From Phorcus lineatus (Eukaryota; Mollusca; Gastropoda; Trochida; Trochidae): a stretch of DNA of 64,000 nt. Within the stretch, counting starts at the first letter, position 1. Each line of letters begins with the position of its first letter. A program made the position numbers and the translations under genes. Below are positions 26,150 through 54,698 of this stretch, one piece after another. The notes beneath the pieces were generated by a model. It ran no database searches. It saw only the letters and a program-made list of their open reading frames with translations, and was not told where the DNA came from. The stretch spans positions 53,655,877-53,719,876 of the forward strand of contig OV121081.1 of assembly GCA_921293015.1 (NCBI GenBank), written 5' to 3'.

Positions 26150-26408
26150 AAAACTTATCCGGTTGCGTGCGCATGGAGGGTTTCCCCGTTACCAGGAGCA
26201 AAAGTCCTTTATCATTAGCAACGAATGGTCAAACGTCATTACACTCTTTTGCATTATATAGGTCAATTGAAATAAATCCCTTACTAATATCAGTATTATG
26301 ATTACGACTAAGAATGATAAGGTATTTTGACTGTAAATGACAGGTCGATGTTGTCAGCTGATTATGGGCATCTGACGTCATTTCCGTATCAACAACCAGC
26401 AAGCATGG
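26150..26408. promoter_or_regulatory. CSNK1G promoter, probably the left half of an ancestral CSNK1G/CEP120 bidirectional promoter
   Basis: GC-richer than its surroundings. It contains an NRF1-like TGCGTGCGCATGG (26163-26175), an RFX X-box-like GTTACC-N3-AGCAAA (26188-26202), an AGCAAC half site (26217-26222), a perfect CRE TGACGTCA (26373-26380) and an ETS-type ATTTCCG (26380-26386). These are typical of TATA-less animal housekeeping and ciliary promoters. The sites are seen; their use is inferred. No transcription start was identified. The stretch 25697-26149 shows nothing else I can name. Confidence 0.5.
26394..26408. repeat. Left target-site word of the giant element
   Basis: AACCAGCAAGCATGG, identical and in the same orientation at 54684-54698. 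The inner part AGCAAGCAT (26398-26406) is the 9-bp duplication if the element begins GG. Confidence 0.75.
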
Positions 26409-26520
26409 TCCACGCTAAATAGTATCCGCTCAGCGAGCATTCTTAAAATGGTCAGTTATCGACTTGTATGAACTTGCGGTCTTGCCTTGCCTCATTGTCA
26501 AAGCGCGTTTGTGGTGCGCT
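26407..26520 (+). repeat. Left terminal inverted repeat
   Basis: Pairs with 54574-54687 with a few small indels and roughly 85% identity by eye. The inner block TATCCGCTCAGCGAGCATT (26423-26441) reappears, reverse-complemented with one change, in the satellite monomers. Confidence 0.8.
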
Positions 26521-27079
26521 GGAGACGATTCAGGCCGACAATTCATATGTGTAACTATAATGCACACCAATTTAAATTATACGAATGTTTTATATATATA
26601 CGCTTTGATACGAGATAATTAATCTAAGTTTAATTTTACGACGTGTATATGCCTCAATATGTTTATTTATTTCAAATAAAATATATGTTTGGTTTTGTTT
26701 GGTTTTATTCATAACACCAAGAGACTCTATGTAAAAATCTCATTTAATTGATGTAGATATAGCAAGTCGCCAATTGATCCCACAAGTTATGTATCGAATG
26801 ATCATACTAAAACGTGCCCAATAAATGGAAGTTTTTAAAACGAAAATTTATGCAGGTCTATACACGTCCTCGATTAAAGCAATACATATATTTTGTAAAA
26901 AAAAACCCGTTGGTTTACTATTAATTTGATACTTATAATGTGACAGCTAGTGTTCAAATAGTGAAGAGATTAAAGATTAGTCTAATGCTACCGTATTTTA
27001 AATTGGAGTTTCTCATTAATTATATATCTGAACAAAATGTAACTTCACCTGCACCTCTCACTTTCAACTCCCCTCTTTT
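26521..27079. other. AT-rich spacer between left terminal repeat and left arm
   Basis: No gene, inverted partner or recognisable repeat; the corresponding right spacer (54243-54573) is not obviously homologous. Confidence 0.6.
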
Positions 27080-27876
27080 ACTTCTCTTTACTAGCGCGTA
27101 CCATTTATATAGAAAATGCTTCTATTATCAAACCTATATATAAGTTTGGAGGATAGAATTACATTTAAGTAGATACTAGATATACTATTATTTGAGATTT
27201 AATTAATAAGGAGAAGCGCAGTAAAATATGCTCGCTGAACGGATAGCCAGTTGCAGATTGGCCTTAGTATTATAGGAAATGAACTTCGAGGGCGGGTCAC
27301 TTTACTAGCGCATAACATTGTTATAGAAGATGCTACTATTATTAAACCTATAAATACGTTAAGAGAACATAATTACCTTTCATAAGATACTACATACACT
27401 ATTATTTGAGATTTTATTAATAACGAGCAACGATGTAAACAAAATGCTCGCTGAACGGATATCCACTCGAAAATTGGCCACAGTGTTATAGGAAATGAAC
27501 TTTGAGGGCGGGTCACTTTACTAGCTCGTACCATTTATATAGAAGAGGCTACTACTATCAAACCTTTATATACCTTAAGAGGATAGAATTACCTTTCATT
27601 AGATACTAGATATACTATCATTTGAGATTTAATTACTAAGAAGCAGCGAAGTAAAAAATGCTCGCTGAATGGACAGCCAGACGCACATTGGATTAAGTGT
27701 TATAAGAAATGAACTTCGAGGGCGGGTCACTTTACTAGCTCGTAACATTTTTATAGAAGATGCTACTATTAACAAATCTATATAAACGTTAAGAGGATAG
27801 AACAACCTCTCATTAGATACTAGAAATAATATTATATGAGATTTAGTTAATGAGGAGCAACGATGTAAACAAATGC

Positions 27877-29700
27877 ACGCTGAATGTATATCCAGTCGCT
27901 GATTGGCAATAGTGATGTAGCATATGGACTTGGAGGGCGGGTCACTTTACTAGCGCTTACCATTTATATAAAAGATGCTACTATTATCAAACCTATATAT
28001 ATGTTTAGAGGATAGAATTACCGTTCATTAGATACTACACATACTATTATTTGACATTTAATTACTAAGGAGAAGCGAAGTAAATAATGCTCGCTGAATG
28101 GATAGCCAGTCGAAAATTGGCCTCAGCGTAAAAGCAAATGAACTCGAAGGTGGGTCACTTTACTAGCGCGTGACATTTATATAGAAGATGCTTCCATTAT
28201 CAACTCGTCATATACGTTTAGAGGATAGAATAACCTTTCATTACATACTATATATATTATCATTTGAGATTTGATTGATAACTAGCAGTGATATACAAAA
28301 ATGCTCGCTGAACGGATATCCACACCAAAATTGGCCATAGTGTCATAGGAAATGGACTTCGAGGGCGGGTCACTTTACTAGCGCGTAACATTTCCATAGA
28401 AGATGCTACTATTACCAAATCTACATATACGTTCAGAGGGTTAAAATTACGTTTTATTATATACTAGATATACTATCATTTGAGATTTAATTACTAAGGA
28501 GCAACGATGTAAACAAATGCTCGCTGAATGGATTGCCAGTCGCTGATTGGCCATCGTGATGTAGCATATGGACTTGGAGGGCGGGTCACTTTACTAGCGC
28601 GTACCATTTATATAGAAGATGCTACTGTTATCAAACCTATATATATGTTTAGAGGATAGAATTACCTTTATGTAGATACTACATATACTATTATTTGAGA
28701 TTTAAATACTAAGTAGCAGCGCAGTAAAATATGTTCGCTGAGCGGATAGCCAGTAGCAAATTGGCCATAGTGTTATAGGAAATGAACTTGGAGGGCGGGT
28801 CACTTTACTAGCGTGTAGTATTTTAATAGAAGATGCAACTATTATTAAACCTACATATCCGTTAAGACGATAGAATAACTTTTCATTAGGTACTAGAAAT
28901 ACTATTATATGAGATTTAATTGATGAGGAGCAACGATGTTAACAAATGCTCGCTGAATGGATAGCCAGTCGCTGATTGGCAATAGTGATGTAGCATATGG
29001 ACTTGGAGGGCGGGTCACTTTACTAGCGCTTACCATTTATATAAAAGATGCTACTATTATCAAACCTATAAATATGTTTAGAGGATAGAATTACCTTTAT
29101 GTAGATACTACACATACTATTATTTGACATTAAATTACTAAGGAGAAGCTCGCTGAATGGATAGCCAGTCGAAAATTGGCCTCAGCGTTAAAGCAAATGA
29201 ACTCGAAGGTGGGTCACTTTACTAGCGCGTGACATTTATATAGAAGATGCTTCCATTATCAACTCGTCATATACGTTTAGAGGATAGAATAACCTTTCAT
29301 TACATACTATATATATTATCATTTGAGATTTGATTGATAACTAGCAGTGATATACAAAAATGCTCGCTGAACGGATATCCACACCAAAATTGGCCATTGT
29401 GTCATAGGAAATGGACTTGGAGGGCTGGTCACTTTACTAGCGCGTAACATTTTCATAGAAGATGCTACTATTACCAAATCTACATATACGTTCAGAGGGT
29501 AGAATTACGTTTTATTAGATACTAGATATACTATCATTTGAGATTTAATTACTAAGGAGCAACGATGTAAACAAATGCTCGCTGAATGGATAGCCAGTCG
29601 CAGATTGGCATCAGTGTTGCAGCAAACGGACTCCAAGGTGGGTGTATTCACTAGCGCGTTCTATTTATATAGAATATGCTACTATTATCAAACCTATATA
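27877..29700 (+). repeat. Older higher-order duplication in outer left arm, about 1.06 kb
   Basis: Five-monomer blocks repeat: the variants at 28090, 28304 and 28520 recur at 29149, 29363 and 29578 with matching private changes (for example TTCCATTATCAACTCGTCAT). Confidence 0.7.
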
Positions 29701-30866
29701 TACGTGACGAGGATAGAATAACCTTTCATCAGATACTAGATTTACTAATATTTGAGATTTAATTAATAAGGAGCAGCGAAGTAAATAATGCTCACTGAAT
29801 GGATAGCCAGTAGAAAATTGGCCTCAGTGTTTGACAAATGAACTCCATGGTGGGTTTACTTCACTAGCGTTTTATTAGATAAAATTATATAGAAGATTCT
29901 ACTATATAAAACTTATATAAAAGTTAAGAAGATAGAATAACCTTTCATTAGATACTAGGAATGCTATTATTTGAGATTTATATACTAAGTTGCAACGATG
30001 TAAACAAATGCTCGCTGAACGGATAGCCAGTTGTAGATTGGCCTTAGTGTTGTAGCAAATGAACTTGGAGGGAGGGTCACTTTACTAGCGCGTAACATTT
30101 ACATAAAAGATGCTACTATTATCAAACTTATATATACGTTAAGGGGATAGAATGACCTTTTATTAAATGCTAATTACATTATTTTATGAGATTCCATTAC
30201 TAAGATACAGCGATGTAAAAAATGCTCGCTGAATGGATAGCCAGTTGCAGATTGGCCTTAGAGTTGTAGCAAATGGACTTGGAGGGAGGGTCTCTTTACT
30301 AGCGCGTAACATTTACATAAAATATGCTACTATTATCAAACTTATATAAACGTTTAGAGGATAGAATTACCTTTCATTAGATACTAGGAATGCTATTATT
30401 TGAGATTTATATACTAAGTTGCAACGATGTAAACAAATGCTCGCTGAATGGATAGCCAGTCGCAGATTGGCCTTACTGTTGTAGCAAATGGACTTGGAGG
30501 GGGGTCTCTTCACTAGCGCGTAACAATTATATAGAAGATTCTACTATATAAAACTTATATAAAAGTTAAGAAGATAAAATAACCTTTCATTAGATACTAG
30601 GAATGCTATTATTTGAGATTTATATACTAAGTTGCAACGATGTAAACAAATGCTCGCTGAACGGATAGCCAGTTGTAGATTGGCCTTAGTGTTGTAGCAA
30701 ATGAACTTGGAGGGAGGGTCACTTTACTAGCGCGTAACATTTACATAAAAGATGCTACTATTATCAAACTTATATATACGTTAAGGGGATAGAATGACCT
30801 TTTATTAAATGCTAATTACATTATTTTATGAGATTCCGTTACTAAGATACAGCGATGTAATAAATA

Positions 30867-33800
30867 CTCGCTGAACGGATAGCCAGTTGCAGATTGGCCT
30901 TAGAGTTGTAGCAAATGGACTTGGAGGGAGGGTCACTTTACTAGCGCGTAACATTTACATAAAAGATGCTACTATTATCAAACTTATATAAACGTTTAGA
31001 GGATAGAATTACCTTTCATTAGATACTAGGAATGCTATTATTTGAGATTTATATACTAAGTTGCAACGATGTAAACAAATGCTCGCTGAACGGATAGCCA
31101 GTCGCAGATTGGCCTTAGTGTTGTAGCAAATGAACTTGGAGGGAGGGTCTCTTTACTAGCGCGTAACAATTATAAAGAAGATGCTACTATATAAAACTTA
31201 TATAAAAGTTAAGAAGATAGAATAACCTTTCATTAGATACTAGGAATGCTATTATTTGAGATGTATATACTAAGTTGCAACGATGTAAACAAATGCTCGC
31301 TGAACGGATAGCCAGTTGCAGATTGGCCTTAGTGTTGTAGCAAATGAACTTGGAGGGAGGGTCACTTTACTAGCGCGTAACATTTACATAAAAGATGCTA
31401 CTAATATCAAACTTATATATACGTTAAGGGGATAGAATGACCTTTTATTTAATGCTAATTACATTATTTTATGAGATTCCGTTACTAAGATACAGCGATG
31501 TAATAAATACTCGCTGAACGGATAGCCAGTTGCAGATTGGCCTTAGAGTTGTAGCAAATGGACTTGGAGGGAGGGTCACTTTACTAGCGCGTAACATTTA
31601 CATAAAAGATGCTACTATTATCAAACTTATATAAACGTTTAGAGGATAGAATTACCTTTCATTAGATACTAGGAATGTTATTATTTGAGATTTATATACT
31701 AAGTTGCAACGATGTAAACATATGCTCGCTGAATGGATAGCCAGTCGCAGATTGGCCTTAGTGTTGTAGCAAATGAACTTGGAGGGAGGGTCACTTTACT
31801 AGCGCGTAACAATTGTAAAGAAGATGCTACTATATAAAACTTATATAAAAGTTAAGAAGATAGAATAACCTTTCATTAGATACTAGGAATACTATTATTT
31901 GAGATGTATATACTAAGTTGCAACGATGTAAACAAATGCTCGCTGAACGGATAGCCAGTTGCAGATTGGCCTTAGTGTTGTAGCAAATGAACTTGGAGGG
32001 AGGGTCACTTTACTAGCGCGTAACAATTATAAAGAAGATGCTACTATATAAAACTTATATAAAAGTTAAGAAGATAGAATAACCTTTCATTAGATACTAG
32101 AAATACTATTATTTGAGAATTATATACTAAGTTGCAACGATGTAAACAAATGCTCGCTGAACGGATAGCCAGTTGCAGATTGGCCTTAGTGTTGTAGCAA
32201 ATGAACTTGGAGGGAGGGTCAATTTACTAGCGCGTAACATTTACATAAAAGATGCTACTATTATCAAACTTATATAAACGTTTAGAGGATAGAATTACCT
32301 TTCATTAGATACTAGGAATGTTATTATTTGAGATTTATATACTAAGTTGCAACGATGTAAACAAATGCTCGCTGAATGGATAGCCAGTTGCAGATTGGCC
32401 TTAGTGTTGTAGCAAATGAACTTGGAGGGAGGGTCAATTTACTAGCGCGTAACATTTACATAAAAGATGCTACTATTATCAAACTTATATAAACGTTTAG
32501 AGGATAGAATTACCTTTCATTAGATACTAGGAATGTTATTATTTGAGATTTATATACTAAGTTGCAACGATGTAAACAAATGCTCGCTGAATGGATAGCC
32601 AGTTGCAGATTGGCCTTAGTGTTGTAGCAAATGAACTTGGAGGGAGGGCCACTTTACTAGCGCGTAACATTTACATAAAAGATGCTACTATTATCATATT
32701 TAAATATACGTTAAGAGGATAAAATGACATTTTATTAGATGCTAATTACATTATTTTATGAGATTCCATTACTAAGATACAGCGATGTAAAAAATGCTCG
32801 CTGAACGGATAGCCAGTTGCAGATTGGCCTTAGAGTTGTAGCAAATGGACTTGGAGGGAGGGTCACTTTACTAGCGCGTAACATTTACATAAAAGATGCT
32901 ACTATTATCAAACTTATATAAACGTTTAGAGGATAGAATTACCTTTCATTAGATACTAGGAATGCTATTATTTGAGATTTATATACTAAGTTGCAACGAT
33001 GTAAACAAATGCTCGCTGAACGGATAGCCAGTCGCAGATTGGCCTTAGTGTTGTAGCAAATGAACTTGGAGGGAGGGTCTCTTTACTAGCGCGTAACAAT
33101 TATAAAGAAGATGCTACTATATAAAACTTATATAAAAGTTAAGAAGATAGAATAACCTTTCATTAGATACTAGGAATGCTATTATTTGAGATGTATATAC
33201 TAAGTTGCAACGATGTAAACAAATGCTCGCTGAACGGATAGCCAGTTGCAGATTGGCCTTAGTGTTGTAGCAAATGAACTTGGAGGGAGGGTCACTTTAC
33301 TAGCGCGTAACATTTACATAAAAGATGCTACTAATATCAAACTTATATATACGTTAAGGGGATAGAATGACCTTTTATTTAATGCTAATTACATTATTTT
33401 ATGAGATTCCGTTACTAAGATACAGCGATGTAATAAATACTCGCTGAACGGATAGCCAGTTGCAGATTGGCCTTAGAGTTGTAGCAAATGGACTTGGAGG
33501 GAGGGTCACTTTACTAGCGCGTAACATTTACATAAAAGATGCTACTATTATCAAACTTATATAAACGTTTAGAGGATAGAATTACCTTTCATTAGATACT
33601 AGGAATGTTATTATTTGAGATTTATATACTAAGTTGCAACGATGTAAACATATGCTCGCTGAATGGATAGCCAGTCGCAGATTGGCCTTAGTGTTGTAGC
33701 AAATGAACTTGGAGGGAGGGTCACTTTACTAGCGCGTAACAATTATAAAGAAGATGCTACTATATAAAACTTATATAAAAGTTAAGAAGATAGAATAACC

Positions 33801-35587
33801 TTTCATTAGATACTAGGAATACTATTATTTGAGATGTATATACTAAGTTGCAACGATGTAAACAAATGCTCGCTGAACGGATAGCCAGTTGCAGATTGGC
33901 CATAGTGTTGTAGCAAATGAACTTGGAGGGAGGGTCACTTTACTAGCGCGTAACAATTATAAAGAAGATGCTACTATATAAAACTTATATAAAAGTTAAG
34001 AAGATAGAATAACCTTTCATTAGATACTAGAAATACTATTATTTGAGAATTATATACTAAGTTGCAACGATGTAAACAAATGCTCGCTGAACGGATAGCC
34101 AGTTGCAGATTGGCCTTAGTGTTGTAGCAAATGAACTTGGAGGGAGGGTCAATTTACTAGCGCGTAACATTTACATAAAAGATGCTACTATTATCAAACT
34201 TATATAAACGTTTAGAGGATAGAATTACCTTTCATTAGATACTAGGAATGTTATTATTTGAGATTTATATACTAAGTTGCAACGATGTAAACAAATGCTC
34301 GCTGAATGGATAGCCAGTTGCAGATTGGCCTTAGTGTTGTAGCAAATGAACTTGGAGGGAGGGTCAATTTACTAGCGCGTAACATTTACATAAAAGATGC
34401 TACTATTATCAAACTTATATAAACGTTTAGAGGATAGAATTACCTTTCATTAGATACTAGGAATGTTATTATTTGAGATTTATATACTAAGTTGCAACGA
34501 TGTAAACAAATGCTCGCTGAATGGATAGCCAGTTGCAGATTGGCCTTAGTGTTGTAGCAAATGAACTTGGAGGGAGGGTCACTTTACTAGCGCGTAACAT
34601 TTACATAAAAGATGCTACTATTATCATATTTAAATATACGTTAAGGGGATAAAATGACATTTTATTAGATGCTAATTACATTATTTTATGAGATTCCATT
34701 ACTAAGATACAGCGATGTAAAAAATGCTCGCTGAACGGATAGCCAGTTGCAGATTGGCCTTAGAGTTGTAGCAAATGGACTTGGAGGGAGGGTCACTTTA
34801 CTAGCGCGTAACATTTACATAAAAGATGCTACTATTATCAAACTTATATAAACGTTTAGAGGATAGAATTACCTTTCATTAGATACTAGGAATGCTATTA
34901 TTTGAGATTTATATACTAAGTTGCAACGATGTAAACAAATGCTCGCTGAACGGATAGCCAGTCGCAGATTGGCCTTAGTGTTGTAGCAAATGAACTTGGA
35001 GGGAGGGTCTCTTTACTAGCGCGTAACAATTATAAAGAAGATGCTACTATATAAAACTTATATAAAAGTTAAGAAGATAGAACAACCTTTCATTAGATAC
35101 TAGGAATGCTATTATTTGAGATGTATATACTAAGTTGCAACGATGTAAACAAATGCTCGCTGAACGGATAGCCAGTTGCAGATTGGCCTTAGTGTTGTAG
35201 CAAATGAACTTGGAGGGAGGGTCACTTTACTAGCGCGTAACATTTACATAAAAGATGCTACTAATATCAAACTTATATATACGTTAAGGGGATAGAATGA
35301 CCTTTTATTTAATGCTAATTACATTATTTTATGAGATTCCGTTACTAAGATACAGCGATGTAATAAATACTCGCTGAACGGATAGCCAGTTGCAGATTGG
35401 CCTTAGAGTTGTAGCAAATGAACTTGGAGGGAGGGTCACTTTACTAGCGCGTAACATTTACATAAAAGATGCTACTATTATCAAACTTATATAAACGTTT
35501 AGAGGATAGAATTACCTTTCATTAGATACTAATTAGACTATTTTATGAGATTCCATTACTAAGATACAGCGATGTAAAAAATGCTCA
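30867..35587 (+). repeat. Higher-order repeat in left arm, nine monomers = 1930 bp
   Basis: 30867-32796 and 32797-34726 are nearly identical, and a third partial copy runs 34727-35587. Landmark monomer variants recur at exactly 1930 bp (33227-31297, 35157-33227). Block amplification is therefore recent. Confidence 0.85.
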
Positions 35588-35936
35588 TAATTAATAACTA
35601 AAGAACACGCACCTTTTGATCACCTGTCTTATTATGTCTTTTGTCTACACATTTGCTACTTTCAAATAATATCTCACTATTCTAACCTTATTTTAAATAT
35701 ACTTAATATTTCCTAAAAACCCATATTCTAACTTACTTTTAATCTCACTACATAACAATATCACTTTTCATTGTGGCGTCACGTCATATACAATGTTTTG
35801 ACGTCACAGTTCGCCTACGACATTGCGTTCTATGTGAAGGTGGCGGGTAAACCGCATATGCTCGGATGTCGATTTTGGTAATTTCATTTGATTTCGGGAC
35901 TTCGGTAATAAACAGAATATCATATTCGTACCGTGG
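35588..35936. other. Start of the unique centre of the giant element
   Basis: AT-rich, then two CRE-like TGACGTCAC/CGTCACGTCAT words near 35777-35808. No gene seen. Confidence 0.5.
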
Positions 35937-36002
35937 CCATGACATACTATGTTTACGACACTAATATTTAGGCATTCGTTTCGTAAACATAGTATGTCAT
36001 GG
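35937..36002. repeat. Perfect 22-bp inverted repeat (hairpin)
   Basis: Arms 35937-35958 and 35981-36002 (CCATGACATACTATGTTTAC and GA) are exact reverse complements around a 22-nt loop. Pairing extends four more bases outward past one mismatch. Confidence 0.92.
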
Positions 36003-36109
36003 ACACTCACATAATATCCTCTATATAATGACATATACACCGACTTGATCGAAATATGTTCGGTGAAGAGGAACTTCTTTTGTCACAGATAAACCTGAAA
36101 CCATTCTGT

Positions 36110-36425
36110 CCCACACATGGAAGCACATACCAAAGATGCACACCATGGACTACCAGATACAAGCACCAGATATGCACACATGGGTCATCAGAAGCACCCA
36201 AGATTCACACATGGGCCACCTGTAATACCAAAGATGCACACATACGACCGCAAGTAACAATCACCCAATATGAACACATTGAATTATCAAAGCACCAAAG
36301 ATGGACACATTGGACAAATACAAGCACCCTAGATACACACATGTCACCATTGGGAGCAAGAAGCACACATGGCACCACAGGTCACACGCATCTAAGATGC
36401 ACACATGGGCCACCTGTAATTTACT
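36110..36425. repeat. Degenerate minisatellite
   Basis: Repeated ACACATGGGCCACC, AAGATGCACACA and AAGCACC words; ACATGGGCCACCTGTAAT occurs twice. The long open frame over it is a repeat by-product rich in His/Thr, not a gene. 36426-36785 beyond it holds nothing recognisable. Confidence 0.75.
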
Positions 36426-36794
36426 ATTTAAAAAATGGTGCCACGTTTGCCAACATTAATTATTAAAGGTAGATCCAAATTTTGAATGATCCCACATTTG
36501 ACTAGGGTACGACAACATTTTCTTTATCCGCGCAACAGAAAAGTGAATTGAATTAACGGGTATATATTCTTAAACTTGTATTGTAAATTCTTAGTACTTC
36601 ATGTCTTCTGAACGAGGACATCAACACCATTAAAACGGGTTTGAAACTGTTAACCAAAATTAATGGTTTAGTGTGATTTTTTAATAAATGTTTTGCCAAA
36701 CACACAATTTTCAGAGAACCTTTATTCCAATTTCTAAAATCTTTATTTTCAGTTTAATCTAGATTGACATCTAGACCCCATTTCATGCTTAACT

Positions 36795-37655
36795 CAATCT
36801 CATTGAAATGAAATCTACATGCTCCACAACATCACGCCTGTAGATCTCATCAGTCTCCGTTAAGTGAGCCGTCAGGTTTGCCTCTGACATATTTCAAATC
36901 AGCCAATCAGCGAATTCGCCCCGTACGCTTTTCAGATCTCGGAAACCGCAAACTTCCGAATGTTTTCCGAATGTCAAACTGGCTAAATACCCGAATTAAT
37001 GTATTTTATGTACATTCAATTTACCCTAGCTTGGTTTGTTGTACAAACAAGCCAAATCGAAGCTATGGAGTTATCTTTCGCAAGGCAAAATCTGCATTCC
37101 TCAACGTTATCCTTAAGTAGACCGTATCAATCCAAATGCTTATTTTGGAAGCAGTTACGTTGAAGAAACGTTTCGTCTTTTAGCTTGTTGTAATCGTTGA
37201 ATAATTTTACATTTCGTAAAACAAATTAATCATAAACATCCTGAGAAACACAAACAACGAAAGCATGTACAAATACCAATACTAAGTTTCTTGATAATTA
37301 TATAATAATCATATGCTACGTATATATGCCAATGAGATTGACCCTTGTTTCGTCAAAGAGTGAAATGTTATAACTAAATCTGCTGTGTTATATGATATTT
37401 ATAGACATATGCAAATGACTTCAACTTGACCACTGTAAAATGGAAAATTTATAAGAGTTTTAACTTCAACGTCTGCTACTTGTATCTTCTTTGAAGGCTA
37501 CCAAGAGACGCGCATTGTGATTGCTTGAAGGTATCTGCGGCAAGCCAATGAGATTTTGAGGTCAAACTGAGTCTAAGGTTAACCTGACGGCTTGAGTAAG
37601 GGAGCCTAGTGAGATCTATAGTCTGCGTAACGTAGATTTTATTTTAATGAGATTG
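36795..37655. mobile_element. Mutator-like MITE, 9-bp target duplication TGCTTAACT
   Basis: Inverted ends CAATCTCATT...AATGAGATTG with homology of about 90 bp (including ATCTAC and GCCGTCAGGTT blocks) are flanked by TGCTTAACT at 36786-36794 and 37656-37664. It is 861 bp with no convincing coding frame. The 9-bp duplication and long ends fit Mutator-like elements; the superfamily is inferred. Confidence 0.75.
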
Positions 37656-37700
37656 TGCTTAACTGTTCCGATAATCTATCTTTCTAAAACAATTAAAGTT

Positions 37701-39493: not shown

Positions 39494-39864
39494 GTTAACA
39501 CTAAAGTAAGCCCTGTTCTATGGACTTAAGGGTATGGCTGCCTCAATGTACATGTATTACATTTGTACATCTGACTTAAAAGAAATTTTGAATCTTACAG
39601 ATGGATATCGTTACAGATTCTTTTGTAAGCAAGACATCGTTACTTCCGAAAATTAAGAAAAAAACATAGTTCTGTTTATTATTATATACAAGTAAAAGTA
39701 CAATAACTGAGCAAAAAAGGAATAGGTTATTAATTTATCTCTAAGTTGAGAATACTTACACTGTGGTTCAAATACACCTTGGTACCTAAGAAGTAGTCCA
39801 GAAACGTTCTATTAATACACCAACTTCTTAATGCATTTGAAGAATTTCCGCTTGGGTACTGATT

Positions 39865-43700: not shown

Positions 43701-46359
43701 TTTGCTACTACACTAAGGCCAATCTGCGACTGGCTATCCGTTCAGCGAGCATTTCTTACATCGCTGTATCTTAGTAATGGAATCTCATAAAATAGTGTAA
43801 TTAGTATCTAATGAAAGGTAATTCTATCCTCTAAACGTTTATATAAGTTTGATAATATTAGCTTCTTTTATGTAAATGTTACGCGCTAGTAAAGTGACCC
43901 TCCCTCCAAGTTCATTTGCTACAACACTAAGGCCAATCTGCGACTGGCTATCCGTTCAGCGAGCATTTCTTACATCGCTGTATCTTAGTAATAGATTCTC
44001 ATAAAATAGTTTAATTAGTATCTAATGAAAGGTAATTCTATCTTCTAAACGTTTATATAAGTTTGATAATATTAGCTTCTTTTATGTAAATGTTACGCGC
44101 TGGTAAAGTGACCCTCCCTCCAAGTTCATTTGCTACAACACTAAGGCCAATCTGCGACTGGCTATCCGTTCAGCGAGCATTTCTTACATCGCTGTATCTT
44201 AGTAATAGATTCTCATAAAATAGTTTAATTAGTATCTAATGAAAGGTAATTCTATCTTCTAAACGTTTATATAAGTTTGATAATATCAGCTTCTTTTATG
44301 TAAATGTTACGCGCTAGTAAAGTGACCCTCCCTCCAAGTTCATTTGCTACAACTCTAAGGCCAATCTGCGACTGGCTATCCGTTCAGCGAGCATTTCTTA
44401 CATCGCTGTATCTTAGTAATAGATTCTCATAAAATAGTGTAATTAGTATCTAATAAAAGGTTATTCTATCCCCTTAACGTATATATAAGTTTGATAATAG
44501 TAGCATATTTTATGTAAATGTTACGCGCTAGTAAAGTGACCCTCCCTCCAAGTTCATTTGCTACTACACTAAGGCCAATCTGCAACTGTCTATCCGTTCA
44601 GCGAGCATTTCTTACATCGCTGTATCTTAGTAATGGAATCTCATAAAATAGTGTAATTAGTATCTAATGAAAGGTAATTCTATCCTCTAAACGTTTATAT
44701 AAGTTTGATAATAGTAACATATTCTATGTAAATGTTACGCGCTAGTAAAGTGACCCTCCCTCCAAGTTCATTTGCTACAACACTAAGGCCAATCTGCGAC
44801 TGGCTATCCGTTCAGCGAGCATTTCTTACATCGCTGTATCTTAGTAATGGAATCTCATAAAATAATGTAATTAGCATCTAATAAAAGGTTATTCTATCCC
44901 CTTAACGTATATATAAGTTTGATAATATCAGCTTCTTTTATGTAAATGTTACGCGCTAGTAAAGTGACCCTCCCTCCAAGTTCATTTGCTACAACTCTAA
45001 GGCCAATCTGCGACTGGCTATCCGTTCAGCGAGCATTTCTTACATCGCTGTATCTTAGTAATAGATTCTCATAAAATAGTGTAATTAGTATCTAATAAAA
45101 GGTAATTCTATCCCCTTAACGTATATGTAAGTTTGATAATAGTAGCATATTTTATGTAAATGTTACGCGCTAGTAAAGTGACCCTCCCTCCAAGTTCATT
45201 TGCTACTACACTAAGGCCAATCTGCAACTGGCTATCCGTTCAGCGAGCATTTCTTACATCGCTGTATCTTAGTAATGGAATTTCATAAAATAGTCTAATT
45301 AGTATCTAATGAAAGGTAATTCTATCCTCTAAACGTATATGTAAGTTTGATAATAGTAGCATCTTTTATGTAAATGTTTCGCGCTGGTAAAGTGACCCTC
45401 CCTCCAAGTTCATTTGCTACAACACTAAGGCCAATCTGCAACTGGCTATCCGTTCAGCGAGCATTTCTTACATCGCTGTATCTTAGTAATAGATTCTCAT
45501 AAAATAGTGTAATTAGTATCTAATGAAAGGTAATTCTATCTTCTAAACGTTTATATAAGTTTGATAATAGTAGCATATTCTATGTAAATGTTACGCGCTA
45601 GTAAAGTGACCCTCCCTCCAAGTTCATTTGCTACAACACTAAGGCCAATCTGCGACTGGCTATCCGTTCAGCGAGCATTTCTTACATCGCTGTATCTTAG
45701 TAATAGATTCTCATAAAATAGTTTAATTAGTATCTAATGAAAGGTAATTCTATCTTCTAAACGTTTATATAAGTTTGATAATAGTAGCATCTTTTATGTA
45801 AATGTTACGCGCTAGTAAAGTGACCCTCCCTCCAAGTTCATTTGCTACTACACTAAGGCCAATCTGCAACTGTCTATCCGTTCAGCGAGCATTTCTTACA
45901 TCGCTGTATCTTAGTAATGGAATCTCATAAAATAATGTAATTAGCATCTAATAAAAGGTAATTCTATCCTCTAAACGTATATGTAAGTTTGATAATAGTA
46001 GCATCTTTTATGTAAATGTTTCGCGCTGGTAAAGTGACCCTCCCTCCAAGTTCATTTGCTACAACACTAAGGCCAATCTGCAACTGGCTATCCGTTCAGC
46101 GAGCATTTCTTACATCGCTGTATCTTAGTAATAGATTCTCATAAAATAGTGTAATTAGTATCTAATGAAAGGTAATTCTATCTTCTAAACGTTTATATAA
46201 GTTTGATAATAGTAGCATATTCTATGTAAATGTTACGCGCTAGTAAAGTGACCCTCCCTCCAAGTTCATTTGCTACAACACTAAGGCCAATCTGCGACTG
46301 GCTATCCGTTCAGCGAGCATTTCTTACATCGCTGTATCTTAGTAATAGATTCTCATAAA
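40709..46359 (-). repeat. Right satellite arm, part 1: about 27 monomers inverted to the left arm
   Basis: CAGCGAGC recurs about every 214 bp (40752, 40966, 41180 ... 46097, 46311). Reverse complement of the left-arm monomer throughout, with CGCGCTAGTAAAGTGACCCT and GGCCAATCTGC. Highly homogeneous. A 14-monomer, 2991-bp period links 41180-42590 with 44171-45580, with patchy differences that look like gene conversion. Confidence 0.95.
42588..42829 (-). repeat. Left-arm-type tract inside the right arm (242 bp, matches 30294-30535)
   Basis: Carries CGTTGCAACTTAGTATATAA and CATTCCTAGTATC, variants otherwise confined to the left arm. Its reverse complement equals 30294-30535 base for base by eye, including the private AGTGAAGAGACCCCCCTCC segment. 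Confidence 0.85.
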
Positions 46360-46585
46360 TACAATTTTACAACTTAAAATTCTTTATACGAGAACCAGTG
46401 CTCAAACAAATAATGACGGTTAGTCAGAAGTGTTGCGCTGCGCTTGACACGGGAACGTGCACGCGCTAAGCGGATATACGTCATCTCATGACGTAATTTT
46501 GGCGAGCCTCTGCAAGTGACGCTTCTATCGAGCACTTCACTTTCGGACTTTCAGGCGTTAGGACGCAACAAAATTGGGATTTATA
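46360..46585 (+). repeat. Ngaro A1 repeat
   Basis: Begins TACAATTTTACAACTTAAAA, ends GGGATTTATA; same as A2 at 52958-53183. Confidence 0.93.
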
Positions 46586-47027
46586 GGAAGTCATTTTACA
46601 TGTAAGTACACAATAATTTTGTTTGTGTATGTGAAGTTGTTGATTATTAACTATAACATTATAGTTATCAGTATTTATGTGATAAATACGTCTGCAGTTG
46701 TCGCACTTCGTATATTATTGTAAATTTTCATAAAAATGTACGTTTATGTTACATAATTCCTATTTCGGACAACTATTGGCATTGATACTTCATAATTGTG
46801 TTGTATCATAATACTCTATGCAGCAATAATTTCATAGAGTTGACTGTTTATATCCATATTTTGATAAAAACCTCGGCAGCGTGCCACTTTGTATAGGTTG
46901 ACAACTTACTTTCTTCATAAACGTGTTCGTTAATGTAATATAAGGGCTATATTGGAAGAATACGTACGCATTAGTAATTTCAAATTTGCAATTTTCTTCT
47001 TACTTGCTTTACCTTACTGTGTCAATA

Positions 47028-47669
47028 ATGTATACGCCTGTTCCTAGACACAGAATGCCCTATTGTGAACAGGTTGTAATTTTGGGCCATTCCTTTGTAA
47101 AGAGACTAGAGCAGGACATCGGCTTCGGTTCCGGTAGGCTACATTATCAGTTTTCCTTTTGGGACAGAAGCGTTAACTTTTTCGGAATTGGCGGGCTCAC
47201 GTTGAAGAAACTTAAGAGCGATTTGATTAACAAATTTGACTATGACATGGCCAGGTTAAACCCCGAAATTTTAGTGGTACAGTTAGGGGGGAATGATTTG
47301 TGTTGTGCGAATGCTGACCCGGTGAAGATCGCTGGCGAGTTCGTAGATTTCTTTTTTCAAATGAAGCAAAAATATAACATTGTCAAACTGGCTGTCTGTG
47401 AAGAATTTCCCAGGTTTACGTCTAGGGCATCAGCTAGCGGGTATGAAGGGAAAAGGCGGCAATTCAATCAATATCTAAAGGTAATGTTGCCGGAGCAGGG
47501 AATGATTTTCTGGGAGCATAAAAAGATGTCCAATTCATCCCTTTCTCTCTTCAGCCCCGATGGTGTACATTTGTCGCAGGATGGTACTTACAAGTTTTAC
47601 CGCAGTTTGCGGGGGTGTATTGTCAATGTTTCTGACTTGCCCAGATGTGAGCTCCCTGCTGGTTGTTGA
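47028..47669 (+). CDS. SGNH/GDSL-type hydrolase domain of the Ngaro element
   Basis: 213 codons from the first ATG. Block I VVILGHSFVKRL, block III VVQLGGNDLCC and block V FSPDGVHLSQDG mark the SGNH hydrolase fold, with the Ser in GHS and the Asp-x-x-His in DGVH. Such hydrolases are known passengers of some Ngaro, DIRS and CR1 retroelements, where an esterase role is suspected but unproven. Here it lies upstream of the gag-like region, with about 0.85 kb between. Confidence 0.8.
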   Translation: MYTPVPRHRMPYCEQVVILGHSFVKRLEQDIGFGSGRLHYQFSFWDRSVNFFGIGGLTLKKLKSDLINKFDYDMARLNPEILVVQLGGNDLCCANADPVKIAGEFVDFFFQMKQKYNIVKLAVCEEFPRFTSRASASGYEGKRRQFNQYLKVMLPEQGMIFWEHKKMSNSSLSLFSPDGVHLSQDGTYKFYRSLRGCIVNVSDLPRCELPAGC

Positions 47670-48347
47670 TATGCGGCACTCACGCTACCATATAATGTCC
47701 GCATTTATGTTTACCAAGTTACTAATTCATTCATGTCAGTACGTCACCAGCAGTCCTGGTATTAACTTCTGAAGGTTGACATATATTTACATACTATTAT
47801 CAGAATATCAGTTAAAACGTAATCTAATGTGCAGTATAAACTCGTGAACATGTATGATATGTTATTGTCGGGCGTGCTTGATATCTTGCCCGGTAAGTTC
47901 GCTTGCACATTGATCGTTCCTATTTGGGTAGCGTAATTCATGTTATTGCCATTATTATGCTGTGTAATGTAAATCCCGTCGTTACAGTTCTCCCACATAG
48001 TGTTCGATATCATTTACGTGTGTTGCTATCTACGGTATAGTATTTGGTGGATGACATTTGTGGATCGAGGCGGCGTCTTTAACATGTGATTAACTTGCGA
48101 TAGCATGTCTGATGCCAATGTTGCCTTGTGATTTATTATCCCATCAGTATTTGATACGTTCGTTCCTATAGTGGTTGAGTAAAAATATGTGGGTACTATC
48201 TTAGGTATAGTATGTGCGGGTATTGTAATTCATGGCGGCTTTATAACATGTCTTGTAATTCCCACTACTACTTTTGGGCCATGTTCCCATAATTCATCAA
48301 CTTAGGTTTTAACATCTGCTTTATTATGGGGTGAACGTTAGGACCAT

Positions 48348-48491
48348 TACTATATATAGCATTGTGTCAAAGCTACGTTGATGTTTAAAATGTGTAGAGA
48401 ATCGTTTCTTTACTGTGATTACTATATATAGCATTGTGTCAAAGCTACGTTGATGTTTAAAATGTGTAGAGAATCGTTTCTTTCCTGTGAT
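48348..48491 (+). repeat. 70-bp tandem duplication in the Ngaro leader
   Basis: ATTACTATATATAGCATTGT and the following ~50 bases occur twice in a row just upstream of the gag-like start. Confidence 0.9.
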
Positions 48492-48516
48492 TTATCATTA
48501 CTAGTTCAACTTTGAC

Positions 48517-49503
48517 ATGCCCCGTCAATCACGGAGCAAGAAACGGGTGTCAGTGGGCCCCGAGGTGGTGTTCAACGAAGCCGATGTGGCAGCAGTGACA
48601 GATAGCACGCCAGGTCCTTCCAACAAGAGACCCAGGCGGCAGCGGACTCCGAGTACATCGCTCGAAGGGTTCATCACAGCTCCTCTCGGCAGGGTGTCAC
48701 AACCGGAAGTTGCGGAAGTTCAACAGGTCGCAGCCGCCAACTTTGTGGACGACGGTGAGGCAATTATTAACCCCTTTGCCGTACAAAGTCCCGTCACTTT
48801 CTCTTTGAGCAATCATGACTTGCAACAATTTAAATCGGGTTCAATTCCGTTAGGTACCGGGGTTTCAGATAAAATGAAATCCAAAATATGGGATAGAGAT
48901 TATGTAGAAATGTCCACTCTGTTAGGCGACGATTGTAAATCTCAAAAGTTGTTGATTACTGTGCAGGGTCAATCTATTTGTTTGCCGGGCCCTACAAAAA
49001 GTGTAGCTCTGTCAATGGAAAGATGGCTGACCGCCTTCCATATTTATATGGCCATATATGTGCATAAATACCCAGGAGAGACACAGGCTATGCTGAAGTA
49101 TATCAGCATTATCAGAGATCTAAATCAAAAAGGGGGAAACTGGCATTCATACGATGTCAATTTTAGAACGTTGCGGGTTAGCAACAATTTGCATTGGGAT
49201 ACGGTACATTGGGAGCTGTGGTTTCAATCTGTAACTTTCGGGAAAGGTTCTTTTCGTCCCAACATCGGACAGCCGAATTTCCCTAGAAATAAGGCATCAG
49301 CAAAACAATCACTCCCAAGAGGTTTCTGTTTTAAATTCCACAAGGGTTTCCAATGTTTTGACCCACAATCGTGCAAGTTCAGTCACGCATGTCCCAATTG
49401 TGGAAGCAACCACAGTGCAATCAAATGTAGTCATAAAGGCAAAGACCTCTTTCCCTCTCATAACGGAACAAAAACGTCTCCCTACCCCAATAAACGCAGA
49501 TAG
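48517..49503 (+). CDS. Ngaro gag-like protein region
   Basis: 328 codons. A basic, disordered N-terminus (MPRQSRSKKR) is followed by a central helical part with an LNxKGGNW-type region and a C-terminal Cys/His cluster (GFCFKFHKGFQCF...CKFSHACPNCGS). That is the zinc-knuckle-like arrangement seen in DIRS/Ngaro first open frames. The RT region overlaps its end, a layout common in the family. Confidence 0.8.
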   Translation: MPRQSRSKKRVSVGPEVVFNEADVAAVTDSTPGPSNKRPRRQRTPSTSLEGFITAPLGRVSQPEVAEVQQVAAANFVDDGEAIINPFAVQSPVTFSLSNHDLQQFKSGSIPLGTGVSDKMKSKIWDRDYVEMSTLLGDDCKSQKLLITVQGQSICLPGPTKSVALSMERWLTAFHIYMAIYVHKYPGETQAMLKYISIIRDLNQKGGNWHSYDVNFRTLRVSNNLHWDTVHWELWFQSVTFGKGSFRPNIGQPNFPRNKASAKQSLPRGFCFKFHKGFQCFDPQSCKFSHACPNCGSNHSAIKCSHKGKDLFPSHNGTKTSPYPNKRR

Positions 49504-51058
49504 ATTGGAATATTGGCTAGATGGTTACGATCCCCAGTTATCTGCCTACCTAGTTCAGGGCTTTAGGCAGGGTTTTAAATTAGACTATGTTGGGGGGCCG
49601 TTAATCTCTTCGGAATCTATTCTCCAAAGTGCCAAAAACGACCCCCGGGCCGTTCAGGCAAAACTGAATAAAGAATTGTTAGCTGGTAGGATAGCAGGGC
49701 CTTTTAAACACGCCCCCTTACAAAATCTTCACTTATCTCCATTGGGGCTTTGTCCTAAGAAGGTTCCAGGCCAGTACAGAATGATTCATAACTTGTCCTA
49801 CCCGGCCGGAAGTTCAGTTAATGACGGCATACCTCAATTCGCCAGCCGGGTACAATATACCTCTTTAGATGAGGCCATGGATATTATCGTAAAATTAGGC
49901 ATGGGGTGTCAATTGGCAAAAACAGATATACAATCAGCGTTTAGAATTCTGCCCATCCATCCTGATGATTACCATCTGCTGGGATTTAAGTGGAAAGGGG
50001 AATTTTACTATGACAGGTGCCTGCCGATGGGGGGTTCTTCCTCGTGTCAAATATTCGAGAAATTCAGTTCGGCCATGAATTGGATCGCTGCTCAGAAACT
50101 AGGTATTGAGAATATGCTTCATATTTTAGATGATTTCCTTATAATTGCAAGGGATGGGGAAAACTGCCATATACAACTGAATTCATTTTTAGAATTGTGC
50201 AACGATATCGGGGTACCGATGGCGAAGGATAAGACATACGGTCCGTCGACATGTTTACAATTCCTAGGCATAGAACTAGATAGCTTGGCAATGGAGGCGC
50301 GTCTTCCTAGGGATAAGTTGTGTAAGGCACGGGAGAGTGTCCTCGCGGTATACAAGAAACGGAAAGTCAAACTTGGTACGCTGCAATCTCTACTAGGTTT
50401 CTTAAACTTTACCTGTAAGGTAATTGTGCCAGGCAGAGCATTTTTGCGTAGGTTGTTTAATTTGACTTGCGGGGTGTTGAAGTCCCATCATAGAATACGG
50501 TTAAACAGAGAAGCAAGAGCTGACTTGAGGTTATGGTTGAATTTCATAAGCAAACATAATGGAAAATCTATACTGCAAAAACGAATGTGGCAATCGAACA
50601 CCTCCCTCCATCTGTTTACCGATGCAGCGGCATCAACCGGGTTTGGCTTGGTATTCAAATCTAAGTGGTCTTTTGGCATTTGGCCGGAGAATTGGAAATC
50701 CTTTAACATCACTCTCTTAGAACTTTTCCCGATCATGTTGGCCGTAAATCTTTGGTGTGCGGAATTGAAGGATAGGTGCATCGTATTTCACACGGACAAT
50801 ATGGCCTTAACGTATATCATTAACAAGCAATCATCAAAAGATCCCATGATTATGTCAGTCATTAGGGCTTTGGTTTTAACTTGTATGGAATACAATATCC
50901 TGTTCAGAGCAGAACATATTCCGGGTCGTTTCAATACTTCAGCGGATCTGCTTTCTCGGTTACAGATCGCAAAATTCCTAGCCCAGGCAGCCTGGGCAGA
51001 CAAGTCCAAAACACAAATTCCTCCATCCCTTCTTCCAGACAACTTTCAGTTCACGTAG
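49504..51058 (+). CDS. Ngaro reverse transcriptase and RNase H region
   Basis: RT motifs in order: YRMIHNLSYPAG, KTDIQSAFRILPIHPDDY, CLPMGGSSSCQIFEKFS, ILDDFLIIA (LDDF in place of YxDD, usual in this group) and FLGIELDS. RNase H follows with LFTDAAASTGFG, LELFPIMLAV, HTDNMA and HIPGRFNTSADLLSR. The open frame extends upstream to about 49358 over the end of the gag-like frame; the start is not defined from sequence. Confidence 0.88.
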
Positions 51059-51936
51059 GCACGTTATTGGGGGCAGCACTCAGTGTTAACAGTCAGTCCA
51101 CTTATGGTAGAGCATGGGAACTATTTGTTGAGTTCTGTAGAGCGTGTTTAAAGAAAGAACCTGGGTTACCGATAGCAGCAGCCGATTGGTCACTTTTCGT
51201 TGCATACATGTTTCATAGGGGTTTATCCCCAGCATCAATGAAAACATATATATCTGCCCTCGGTTACATACACAAAATCCGCGGTATGAATGATCAGTCA
51301 AATACTTTTGTCGTTCAAAAATTGTTGCAAGGAGCTAGCCGTTTGCAAGGTCGTATCGAAAATAGATTGCCCATCACCGAGGAAATTTTGGTTAGGATGA
51401 TAACAGCGATAGGCTTGATCATTAGTAAACCGTTCGAGCAGATTTTGTTTAGGACAATGTTTTTAACAGCTTTTCATGGGTTTTTCCGTATTGGTGAGCT
51501 TACGGTGCAGAGTCAGGGATCGGTATCTTCTTTGCATGTGCAAGATGTATCATTCTCCGATAACGCAGCGCACATCAACATTTCCAAGTTCAAGCACAAT
51601 TCGTCTAATTCAACAAAAGTGGTTATTTTGGAACGCTCGAATGATCAAATTTGCCCGGTTACAGCGCTAGGAGAATACCTAAAGGTAAGGTCTCTGACAA
51701 CGGGGCCGCTTTTTTGTGACCGAAACTTTGGGCCCATCTTGAGATCAAAATTCAATAAGACCTTAACTAATGTTCTCAGATTCATCCATCTGGATTCCTC
51801 ACGTTACAAGGGACATAGCTTTAGAATAGGCGCGGCTAGTTCGGCTGCTCGGAAGGGGTGGTCTGACGCTAAAATTAGGCAAAGGGGGCGCTGGAATTCC
51901 GATGCCTTTAAATCATACATACGGGGGCAGTTGTAA
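51056..51936 (+). CDS. Ngaro tyrosine recombinase region
   Basis: Catalytic core visible: FHGFFRIGEL (first Arg), a Lys in the ISKFKH strand, GHSFRIGAASSAARKG (His-x-x-Arg), a GRWNSDAF helix and the terminal SYIRG tyrosine. N-terminal SAM-like core region at 51060-51360. It replaces the integrase of LTR elements and explains the absence of a target duplication. Its frame overlaps the end of the RT-RNase H frame, as is usual in the family. Confidence 0.88.
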
Positions 51937-52702
51937 CGTTTCAATCAAAATGCTGCTATCGGTACGCCAACACACCAGTCATAAATAAGGGGATCAGTTC
52001 GTTACTTATTGTAGAGAAAGATGGTTTCAATTATTTTTCGCATGTGCAAAAATGGCTGAAATTCCATCGTTACTTGCTGTTCCATGAGTGCTTATTCGCA
52101 TGTGCAATAAGAGTTCGTGGTTTACAGCGTTGGTCGTAGGATCATTAGCATTGTTATATTCGTGTTTAGGATCAATAATAGTATTGTAAAAAGGGCCGAG
52201 GGTAAGCTATCTCCACCCTCGCGGAAAATTGTGAATATGTTAAGACAATTTCCTTTCTTTGTTATTGTATTTAAATTAGTTGTTCTATTTAAGATATATA
52301 ATGTATATGGTTTCCAAGATTGGGACAACCTTTCTGCTGTGTGCTAATGTTTTCAGGCCACAGCTGCGAATCTCCAGGAATTGAACTGAATTTACGCACG
52401 GCCGTGCGCGTACAGACTCTGGCAGCATTCGTGGAAGTTTGTGGACTTTGATTTGTGGGGAAATGGTGCTTAATGCAGCGGGCGAACATACCCTTCACAG
52501 GCTTGTCAGGCCATTTTAACCCGCATCTTAATTATTATTAAACAGCCCATGTAGGTGAAGTTCTTGTTATGTATAACAGGTCATTGCGTTGTAAAATATA
52601 GTTGTTGATCAAATGTTTATGAGGAGGTTGGCTCGAGTTTAACTATTCCACGTATTACCGAAGGCTATCGTCGGGTGGGGTATAGTGTTCCACTATTTGG
52701 CG

Positions 52703-52957
52703 CTAATTTACCCTCACCTTTGGGGAATAAATTTGGCAAATTACTTATTTTAAAATGTTCAAGTTCAAATTGGTAAATATTATGATATTTACTCATATTA
52801 TGGATTATTATAAGTACCGCTCCAGGGCGGTATTCATACCATATATTTGTTAATAAACTTGTCCGCTTTATGCGGGACTTTACAACAAGTTTCTCTTGAC
52901 TTTTCTTCCCCAAATAGAACTAGACAGCCTCAGGTAATTCTCGGGTTTGAGGATAAA
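52703..52957 (+). repeat. Ngaro B1 repeat
   Basis: Begins CTAATTTACCCTCACC, ends TTTGAGGATAAA; same as B2. It joins A2 directly. Confidence 0.93.
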
Positions 52958-53183
52958 TACAATTTTACAACTTAAAATTCTTTATACGAGAACCAGTGCT
53001 CAAACAAATAATGACGGTTAGTCAGAAGTGTTGCGCTGCGCTTGACACGGGAACGTGCACGCGCTAAGCGGATATACGTCATCTCATGACGTAATTTTGG
53101 CGAGCCTCTGCAAGTGACGCTTCTATCGAGCACTTCACTTTCGGACTTTCAGGCGTTAGGACGCAACAAAATTGGGATTTATA
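52958..53183 (+). repeat. Ngaro A2 repeat
   Basis: Second copy of A, directly after B1. The B1/A2 junction GGATAAATACAAT preserves the form of a circularised element's joint. Confidence 0.93.
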
Positions 53184-53252
53184 CCTCCACCTCCCCAGCC
53201 TCCTCCTCTTAGGATAAAAATGTAATGTGTGTATCTACATAAATGTCGCTGC

Positions 53253-53507
53253 CTAATTTACCCTCACCTTTGGGGAATAAATTTGGCAAATTACTTATTT
53301 TAAAATGTTCAAGTTCAAATTGGTAAATATTATGATATTTACTCATATTATGGATTATTATAAGTACCGCTCCAGGGCGGTATTCATACCATATATTTGT
53401 TAATAAACTTGTCCGCTTTATGCGGGACTTTACAACAAGTTTCTCTTGACTTTTCTTCCCCAAATAGAACTAGACAGCCTCAGGTAATTCTCGGGTTTGA
53501 GGATAAA
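53253..53507 (+). repeat. Ngaro B2 repeat (element right end)
   Basis: Second copy of B; the satellite resumes at 53508. Confidence 0.93.
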
Positions 53508-54242
53508 ATAGTTTAATTAGTATCTAATGAAAGGTAATTCTATCTTCTAAACGTTTATATAAGTTTGATAATAGTAGCATCTTTTATGTAAATGTTACGC
53601 GCTAGTAAAGTGACCCTCCCTCCAAGTTCATTTGCTACTACACTAAGGCCAATCTGCAACTGTCTATCCGTTCAGCGAGCATTTCTTACATCGCTGTATC
53701 TTAGTAATGGAATCTCATAAAATAATGTAATTAGCATCTAATAAAAGGTTATTCTATCCCCTTAACGTATATATAAGTTTGATAATAGTAGCATCTTTTA
53801 TGTAAATGTTACGCGCTAGTAAAGTGACCCTCCCTCCAAGTTCATTTGCTACAACACTAAGGCCAATCTGCAACTGGCTATCCGTTCAGCGAGCATTTCT
53901 TACATCGCCGTATCTTAGTAATGAAATCTCATAAAATAGTGTAATTAGTATCTAATGAAAGGTAATTCTATCCTCTAAACGTATATATAAGTTTGATAAT
54001 AGTAGCATCTTTTATGTAAATGTTACGCGCTAGTAAAGTGACCCTCCCTCCAAGTTCATTTGCTACAACACTAAGGCCAATCTGCAACTGGCTATCCGTT
54101 CAGCGAGCATTTCTTACATCGCTGTTTCTTGGTATTAGAATCTCAAAAATAGTGTAATTAGTATCTAATGAAAGGTAATTCTATCCTCTAAACGTTTAAT
54201 ATAAGTTTGATAATTGTAGCATCTTTTATGTAAATGTTACGT
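53508..54242 (-). repeat. Right satellite arm, part 2: about 3.5 monomers after the Ngaro insertion
   Basis: Resumes with ATAGTTTAATTAGTATC at the exact monomer position interrupted at 46359. CAGCGAGC at 53673, 53887 and 54101. The outer end breaks off mid-monomer at AAATGTTACG. Confidence 0.93.
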
Positions 54243-54573
54243 TTTCAATTACGGTAGAGTTTGATTGTACTCTTTTCACAATTTCAAAACTAGCTGCCAA
54301 TTTAGGTCTCAAATTAAATGTAATCCTTCGGGTTTTTTAGTTTTTTTTACAAATATGTGATTCTTTAATAACTAATAATATTGGAGGTACGAATAAAATT
54401 CACCCTCGAAATTTATTTGCTAGAGATTTTATCAGATCATTGAATTGGCTATTTCTACACGAGTTGATAAAATCGCACAATAAACATATACTTGATGAGA
54501 AATAATTTTAAATGTGAATGCATGTACACGCCGTTTATTTTAACTTCGTTTCAATTTTGTCGTATATAAACCT
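54243..54573. other. Right spacer between arm and terminal repeat
   Basis: AT-rich. Around 54387-54509 a short open stretch weakly recalls the segment before RNase H in DIRS/Ngaro elements, possibly a fossil scrap of an older one. Otherwise nothing recognised. Confidence 0.35.
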
Positions 54574-54687
54574 TCGTATCACAAATGCGCTTTTACAAGA
54601 AGGTACGGATAGACCGCAAGTCCATACAAGTCGATAACAGACCACATTTTGAATGCTCGCTGAGCGGTTAGTATTTAGCGTGAAACC
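54574..54687 (-). repeat. Right terminal inverted repeat
   Basis: Reverse complement matches 26407-26520, including CCGCTCAGCGAGCATTC and TTATCGACTTGTATG. It now forms the sequence immediately upstream of CEP120. Confidence 0.8.
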
Positions 54688-54698
54688 AGCAAGCATGG
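54684..54698. repeat. Right target-site word of the giant element
   Basis: AACCAGCAAGCATGG, matching 26394-26408. It continues into CEP120 leader as AAGCATGGCGG, a YY1-like promoter word, suggesting the empty site was in a start-proximal promoter. Confidence 0.75.

Follow-up and report, generated by a model that had tools for sequence, protein, structure and literature searches.

A 28-kb foldback-like insertion with satellite arms between CSNK1G and CEP120 of Phorcus lineatus

The stretch of DNA analysed here (the window) comprises 64,000 nucleotides of the gastropod Phorcus lineatus (GenBank assembly GCA_921293015.1, contig OV121081.1, positions 53,655,877 to 53,719,876 of the forward strand), and all coordinates given below refer to it. 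It holds the casein kinase I gamma gene CSNK1G, the gene CEP120 and, between the two, a 28,276-bp segment in which two satellite arms surround a centre and are themselves enclosed by inverted terminal domains (Table 1). This segment is a well-bounded foldback-like insertion and forms one unit. A first-pass annotation, made from the sequence alone, had proposed a foldback-like element at 26407-54687, and the analysis bears on that proposal at several points.

The limits of the element are marked by the 14-mer ACCAGCAAGCATGG, which has two occurrences in the window, both on the plus strand, and which corresponds to the host word that the first-pass annotation had noticed in direct orientation outside both ends. 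Since the two copies flank 26409-54684, the element limits were set there; the segment proposed earlier thus stands, while its exact limits do not. The chance of an exact flanking 14-mer is about 5 x 4^-14 = 2e-8 by our own arithmetic, which allows for offsets of +/-2 bp. An A precedes the 14-mer on both sides, so that a duplication of 15 bp is possible; assuming 14 bp, the two ends of the element correspond without a gap and read TYCACGC. Inside these limits the terminal domains are inverted relative to each other, as 26411-26513 matches 54682-54580 with 84.5% identity over 103 bp (BLAST, E 1e-25), the outer ends are identical at 91 of 110 positions (~83%) in an ungapped comparison, and the local score of 128 compares with 27 for the best of 300 shuffles. 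The inverted ends had been described as 113 bp long; their inversion is borne out but their length is not, because two further blocks of 71% identity (102 and 134 columns) extend the homology inward and make the inverted terminal domain longer than that, ~0.68 kb on the left and ~0.44 kb on the right (1,120 of the 49,106 unmasked bases of the window).

Between the terminal domains lie the two opposed arrays, which had rightly been seen as built from one ~214-bp monomer in opposite orientation, and which have a word in common with the ends of the element. This word, box A (CCGCTCAGCGAGCATT), is near-palindromic, and its counterparts in the ends, TATCCGCTCAGCGAGCATTCTT and CTAACCGCTCAGCGAGCATT, begin 14 bp inside the left end and 13 bp inside the right one. 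With up to 4 mismatches allowed in 14 positions, the left array yields 39 sites of the box A word and the right array 30, spaced 200-220 bp apart; the monomers were phased by this same word, and the unbroken spacing nevertheless indicates that every monomer unit carries it. The 64-kb window contains 64 exact occurrences of the 9-bp core GCTCGCTGA, where composition predicts 0.13; of these, 32 are in the left array, 30 in the right array and one in each end, and none lies outside the element. Box A is also among the conserved parts of the monomer: its 18-bp windows are within the 12 best-conserved of the left-arm monomer, alongside a second box, GGGTCACTTTACTAGCGC, that is absent from the element ends, and its exact 9-mers occur 31-36 times each in the left array, where the median for 9-mers of the consensus is 20. 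A search of Rfam gave no match at the gathering threshold in the window and no known ribozyme family in the arrays.

Table 1. Coordinates of the element, its parts and the neighbouring genes in the 64-kb window (TRF, Tandem Repeats Finder; ORF, open reading frame)
Feature	Position	Strand	Remarks
CSNK1G gene	2549-25677	-	casein kinase I gamma matches: E 8.3e-12 (first exon), E 6.5e-28 (further exon)
Target-site duplication, left copy	26395-26408	+	exact match to 54685-54698; only two occurrences in window
Left terminal domain	26409-27085	+	inverted repeat of 54242-54684; identity 84.5% (outer 103 bp) and 71% (two inner blocks)
Box A, left end	26423-26444	-	20/22 to monomer; score reached by 0/300 shuffles
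Left satellite arm	27086-35586	+	~39.7 copies of ~214-bp monomer (TRF); outer part older, inner part with a higher-order repeat of 9 monomers (~1,930 bp)
Centre	35587-39868	.	4.3 kb; 13 ORFs of at least 60 amino acids with no family above cut-off
~165-bp-repeat array	39869-40709	+	about five repeats; ends exactly where right satellite arm begins
Right satellite arm, inner	40710-46359	-	~26.4 copies; 14-monomer (~2,991 bp) higher-order repeat
Left-arm-type tract in right arm	42587-42829	-	243 bp, exact to 30294-30536
Nested Ngaro-type retrotransposon	46360-53505	+	~7.1 kb; limits within ~5 bp; not part of original unit
Right satellite arm, outer	53506-54241 (TRF array 53503-54241)	-	~3.5 copies
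Right terminal domain	54242-54684	-	BLAST and inner-block alignment
Box A, right end	54652-54671	+	18/20 to monomer; score reached by 0/300 shuffles
Flanking 14-bp word, right copy	54685-54698	+	
CEP120 gene	54772-56122	+	55796-56122 matches CEP120, E 5.4e-38

The part between the arms had been called a unique centre, which holds in part, given the degenerate minisatellite at ~36127-36406 and the ~165-bp-repeat array that adjoins the right arm. That the 165-bp repeat is related to the 214-bp monomer is not supported, as 34 of 300 shuffles score at least as high, and the score of the centre against the monomer is reached by 55 of 60 shuffles. Coding content was assessed with Pfam for all 13 centre ORFs of at least 60 amino acids (stop to stop) and, among terminal-domain ORFs of at least 45 amino acids, for 5 of 6 on the left and 3 of 4 on the right, the two left out lying mostly in the flanks. 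No family reached the cut-off in the 13 centre ORFs and 8 of 10 terminal-domain ORFs, in agreement with the earlier remark that no transposase is recognisable, array ORFs being outside this search and a gene of short exons being able to escape it. Specifically, no transposase of Mutator-like elements (MULEs) was above the cut-off in the centre ORFs, no Cas1-type integrase was among the Pfam matches of the searched ORFs, and the weak sub-threshold matches were to DUF5317 (E 0.07), TEP1_N (E 0.03), Peptidase_M43 (E 0.019) and GILT (E 0.22). By eye, the minus-strand ORFs 38051-38461 and 37701-38045 resemble pieces of the reverse transcriptase of a long interspersed nuclear element; this possible relic (37701-38461) had no supporting match in Pfam or, for 38051-38461, among PDB sequences, and is unconfirmed.

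The right satellite arm is cut by a nested retrotransposon, which we take to belong to the family named Ngaro. Its split direct repeats are identical at 231 of 231 and 255 of 255 positions (BLAST), which indicates a recent insertion, and its Pfam matches are to RVT_1 (E 4.3e-10), GDSL lipase (E 6.3e-9) and, slightly below the cut-off (26.5 vs 27.1 bits), Phage_integrase (E 6.5e-6). The insert therefore combines the Ngaro features of split direct repeats, reverse transcriptase and tyrosine recombinase, the last on a sub-threshold match. Without it the unit measures 21,130 bp, very close to the ~21 kb given by the first-pass annotation. The GDSL-lipase-like ORF of the insert lies at 46944-47669, and a 72-bp tandem duplication is present inside the insert at 48346-48492.

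With respect to the genomic setting, start codons were placed by eye at 25641 (minus strand) for CSNK1G and at 54772 (plus strand) for CEP120, at distances of 753 bp and 73 bp from the respective flanking words. These putative starts would put the element within a head-to-head CSNK1G/CEP120 intergenic region of ~840 bp, inside the head-to-head promoter of the two genes. Human CEP120 and CSNK1G3 are divergent neighbours as well; neither gene was named among the literature matches listed. Within the element the CpG observed/expected ratio is 0.82-1.58; the flanks, with gene bodies strongly depleted in CpG, have ratios of 0.397 and 0.372. This step was considered as evidence of the boundaries or the youth of the element and was rejected, as its best change-points, 25463 and 54916, are not at the 14-mers; they fall where the gene bodies of CSNK1G and CEP120 begin, so that gene-body methylation explains the step. 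In addition, the CSNK1G region contains a 241-bp tandem duplication with 99% identity (11011-11498) and a ~170-bp repeat present three times in diverged form (15444-15932), and the CEP120 region contains an inverted 80-bp pair with 85% identity (56210-56289 and 56644-56722) that is possibly a small inverted-repeat element.

Given the flanking 14-mer, the inverted domains, the opposed arrays and the word common to ends and monomers, we consider it likely that the segment is a non-autonomous foldback-like DNA transposon that was inserted as one unit between CSNK1G and CEP120. The same four features uphold the earlier idea of one mobile unit, which may or may not have moved at full size. Because the searched ORFs are without a transposase, we assume a supply in trans, and such an enzyme would recognise the terminal domain, probably via box A. 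By analogy with footprinting of the Drosophila transposon Galileo, each monomer would be an extra weak transposase-binding site, and we propose that, with a weak site in each monomer, an arm would amount to a long array of secondary sites. Within each arm, growth would proceed by unequal exchange or by slippage during replication, pairing of the inverted arms by fold-back or between sisters or homologues would occasionally copy sequence across, and the centre would be passenger DNA.

Several observations weigh against this interpretation. The terminal domains are only 71-84% identical, which means that they diverged before insertion or that the insertion is old, and the Pfam search of the centre and terminal-domain ORFs yielded no transposase family, a result with which a source in trans remains compatible. 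The orientation of box A in the ends is opposite to that in the adjacent arm, which simple spread of the end does not explain. The inner terminal domains contain words that resemble the monomer, though at a borderline level: ATAGCAAGTCGCCAATTG on the left matches the consensus of the outer left monomers at 16 of 18 positions (1 of 61 host windows scores equally high) and CCCTCGAAATTTATTTGCTA on the right at 17 of 20 (none of 104 host windows), this consensus having been chosen afterwards, and in comparison with the consensus of all monomers the score is reached by 245 of 300 shuffles on the left and 46 of 300 on the right. A monomer profile gave no significant match on the array-masked window (left box A E 5.4, right inner site E 6.1, a host site E 12, right box A E 51), and a dimer profile on the masked window, likewise without a significant match, gave E 0.12 for box A at 26445-26423, E 3.3 for box A at 54652-54671, E 8 for a host site and E 13 for the right inner site. 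Furthermore, the duplication is 14 bp long vs 7-11 bp in known foldback-type hosts, the element is represented by a single locus, and the insertion may predate the growth of the arrays.

The history of the arms bears on the last of these points. We find it quite possible that what inserted was a small foldback-like element, consisting of the terminal domains and a few monomers, and that its arms reached kilobases in place by unequal exchange. Alignment of 66 whole monomers (38 left, 28 right) gave mean identities of 0.811 for the outer 13 left monomers, 0.916 for the inner left, 0.947 for the main right and 0.89 for left-mid vs right-main. The inner left arm has a mean identity of 0.979 for monomers at lag 9, and the right arm one of 0.970 for those at lag 14 (vs 0.937-0.961 at other tested lags), so the higher-order structure of the arms is not mirror-image, and exact duplications, which we read as recent, span 948 bp within the left arm and 674 bp within the right arm. 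Together, the different higher-order repeats and the exact duplications indicate that each arm amplifies separately, as both the preferred reading and in-place growth suppose. Growth in place would also agree with the Tetris element of Drosophila virilis, since, in the excerpts available of its description (PMC4079207), the inverted repeats of complete copies are at most 1,735 bp long and long TIR-220 arrays, with as many as 66 copies, are believed to have expanded within the element. However, the outer 13 left monomers differ from one another by ~19%, so that the left array is old in part, and its growth may have preceded or followed the insertion. That the satellite arms are working arrays of transposase sites, and that the ~21-kb unit was moved as such, a giant foldback, by an animal transposase with a 14-bp stagger, is in our view doubtful. 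Movement at full size would run counter to the idea, put forward by the authors of the Tetris paper, that transposition is disrupted when arrays are long, and it would offer satellite arrays a direct route into gene-rich DNA.

Sequence also appears to have been copied between the two arms. In 150-bp windows the left-arm-type tract of the right arm (Table 1) is 97-100% identical to the left arm vs 87-92% at best to other right-arm sequence, and 14 of 290 windows match the opposite arm better than their own, mostly by 1-3%. The exact tract and these windows point to copying between the inverted arms, which most simply went from left to right and may have taken place by fold-back pairing or by exchange between sisters or homologues. 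With two satellite arms, a nested insertion that can be dated and a tract matching exactly between the arms, the locus makes the concerted evolution of inverted arrays directly testable.

A composite origin, in which two foldback-like elements, one on each side, mobilised the host or transposon DNA between them, appears rather improbable. Large foldback-flanked units are known in Drosophila, a paper on which was not found in the literature searched; the lack of transposase similarity in the searched centre ORFs, the unrelated repeats of the centre and the divergence of the terminal domains are all as expected of such a composite. However, there is one terminal domain per side, and a self-comparison with BLAST (E up to 1e-5) shows the outer pair only, with none flanking the centre. 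We regard it as very unlikely that no transposition took place and that the segment is a palindromic satellite locus of old date, flanked by a 14-mer that arose by chance or as part of the repeat: the single visible locus would fit, but an exact 14-mer at both limits has the minute chance calculated above, and the terminal domains and box A connect the ends with the arms. Scarcely credible is a Helitron/Helentron-type element bearing arrays of satellite-like repeats, such as occur in oysters and Drosophila, since these elements have no target-site duplication or terminal inverted repeats and end in CTRR, whereas inverted ends, a 14-bp flanking duplication and a right end of ...GCGTGAA are found here. 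The arrays in themselves would suit it, as satellite-like repeat arrays are often carried by Helitron/Helentron elements in the part of the literature consulted (PMC12628747).

The preferred reading, a foldback-like transposon inserted as one unit, can be set beside known systems. Long inverted repeats with tandem repeats, which define the foldback-like class, are present, but the 14-bp duplication is longer than the ~7-10 bp of the known families of that class. Sequence patterns found no locus in viral and prokaryotic contig collections, which are uninformative on animal genomes. To our knowledge, a 14-bp stagger exceeds that of the eukaryotic inverted-repeat transposon superfamilies, and the duplication would point to an undescribed transposase. 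One Galileo paper (PMC2775673) reportedly has a single mention of a 13-bp duplication; otherwise, duplications of 13-15 bp came mainly from retroelement and bacterial papers among the matches listed. In the extracts available of the papers cited from here on, the casposons of archaea combine inverted ends with target-site duplications of 14-15 bp, but they employ a Cas1-type integrase and are without satellite arms (PMC6977970). MULEs differ by target-site duplications of 8-11 bp (PMC6446971). Tm1, a Mutator/Foldback element of root-knot nematodes (PMC3169594), has composite ends and is alike in that the two ends of a single copy differ, whereas its repeats are 14 bp long, its elements ~1 kb, its duplications 8-10 bp (mostly 9 bp), and some of its copies have a Phantom-like transposase. 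Galileo, of the P superfamily (PMC3688188), resembles the present element in its long foldback-like inverted repeats with internal tandem repeats, in which THAP binding sites are located that provide extra sites for the transposase; it differs in that its inverted repeats are 0.5-1.2 kb long and that it has a P-type transposase, none of which was found in the searched ORFs here.

The closest counterpart is Tetris, which consists of a flanking domain, ~220-bp tandem repeats, an inner domain and an ORF-less middle, and whose flanking domain and repeat have a 37-bp stretch in common (PMC4079207). Its authors proposed that the repeats supply additional sites for transposase binding and that an increase in array length may disrupt transposition. 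The plan of the present element is the same, with a common word of ~20 bp; it differs, in a comparison by description rather than by sequence, in its arms of 8.5 and 6.4 kb and in its duplication of 14 bp, where that of Tetris is 8-10 bp. A second foldback element with arms this long was not found in the literature searched (open-licence papers). The earlier statement that no family with such a layout has been described is thus overturned: according to the available portion of the Tetris paper the layout is already known, and what distinguishes the element of P. lineatus is its kilobase-long arms with intact flanks and its 14-bp duplication.

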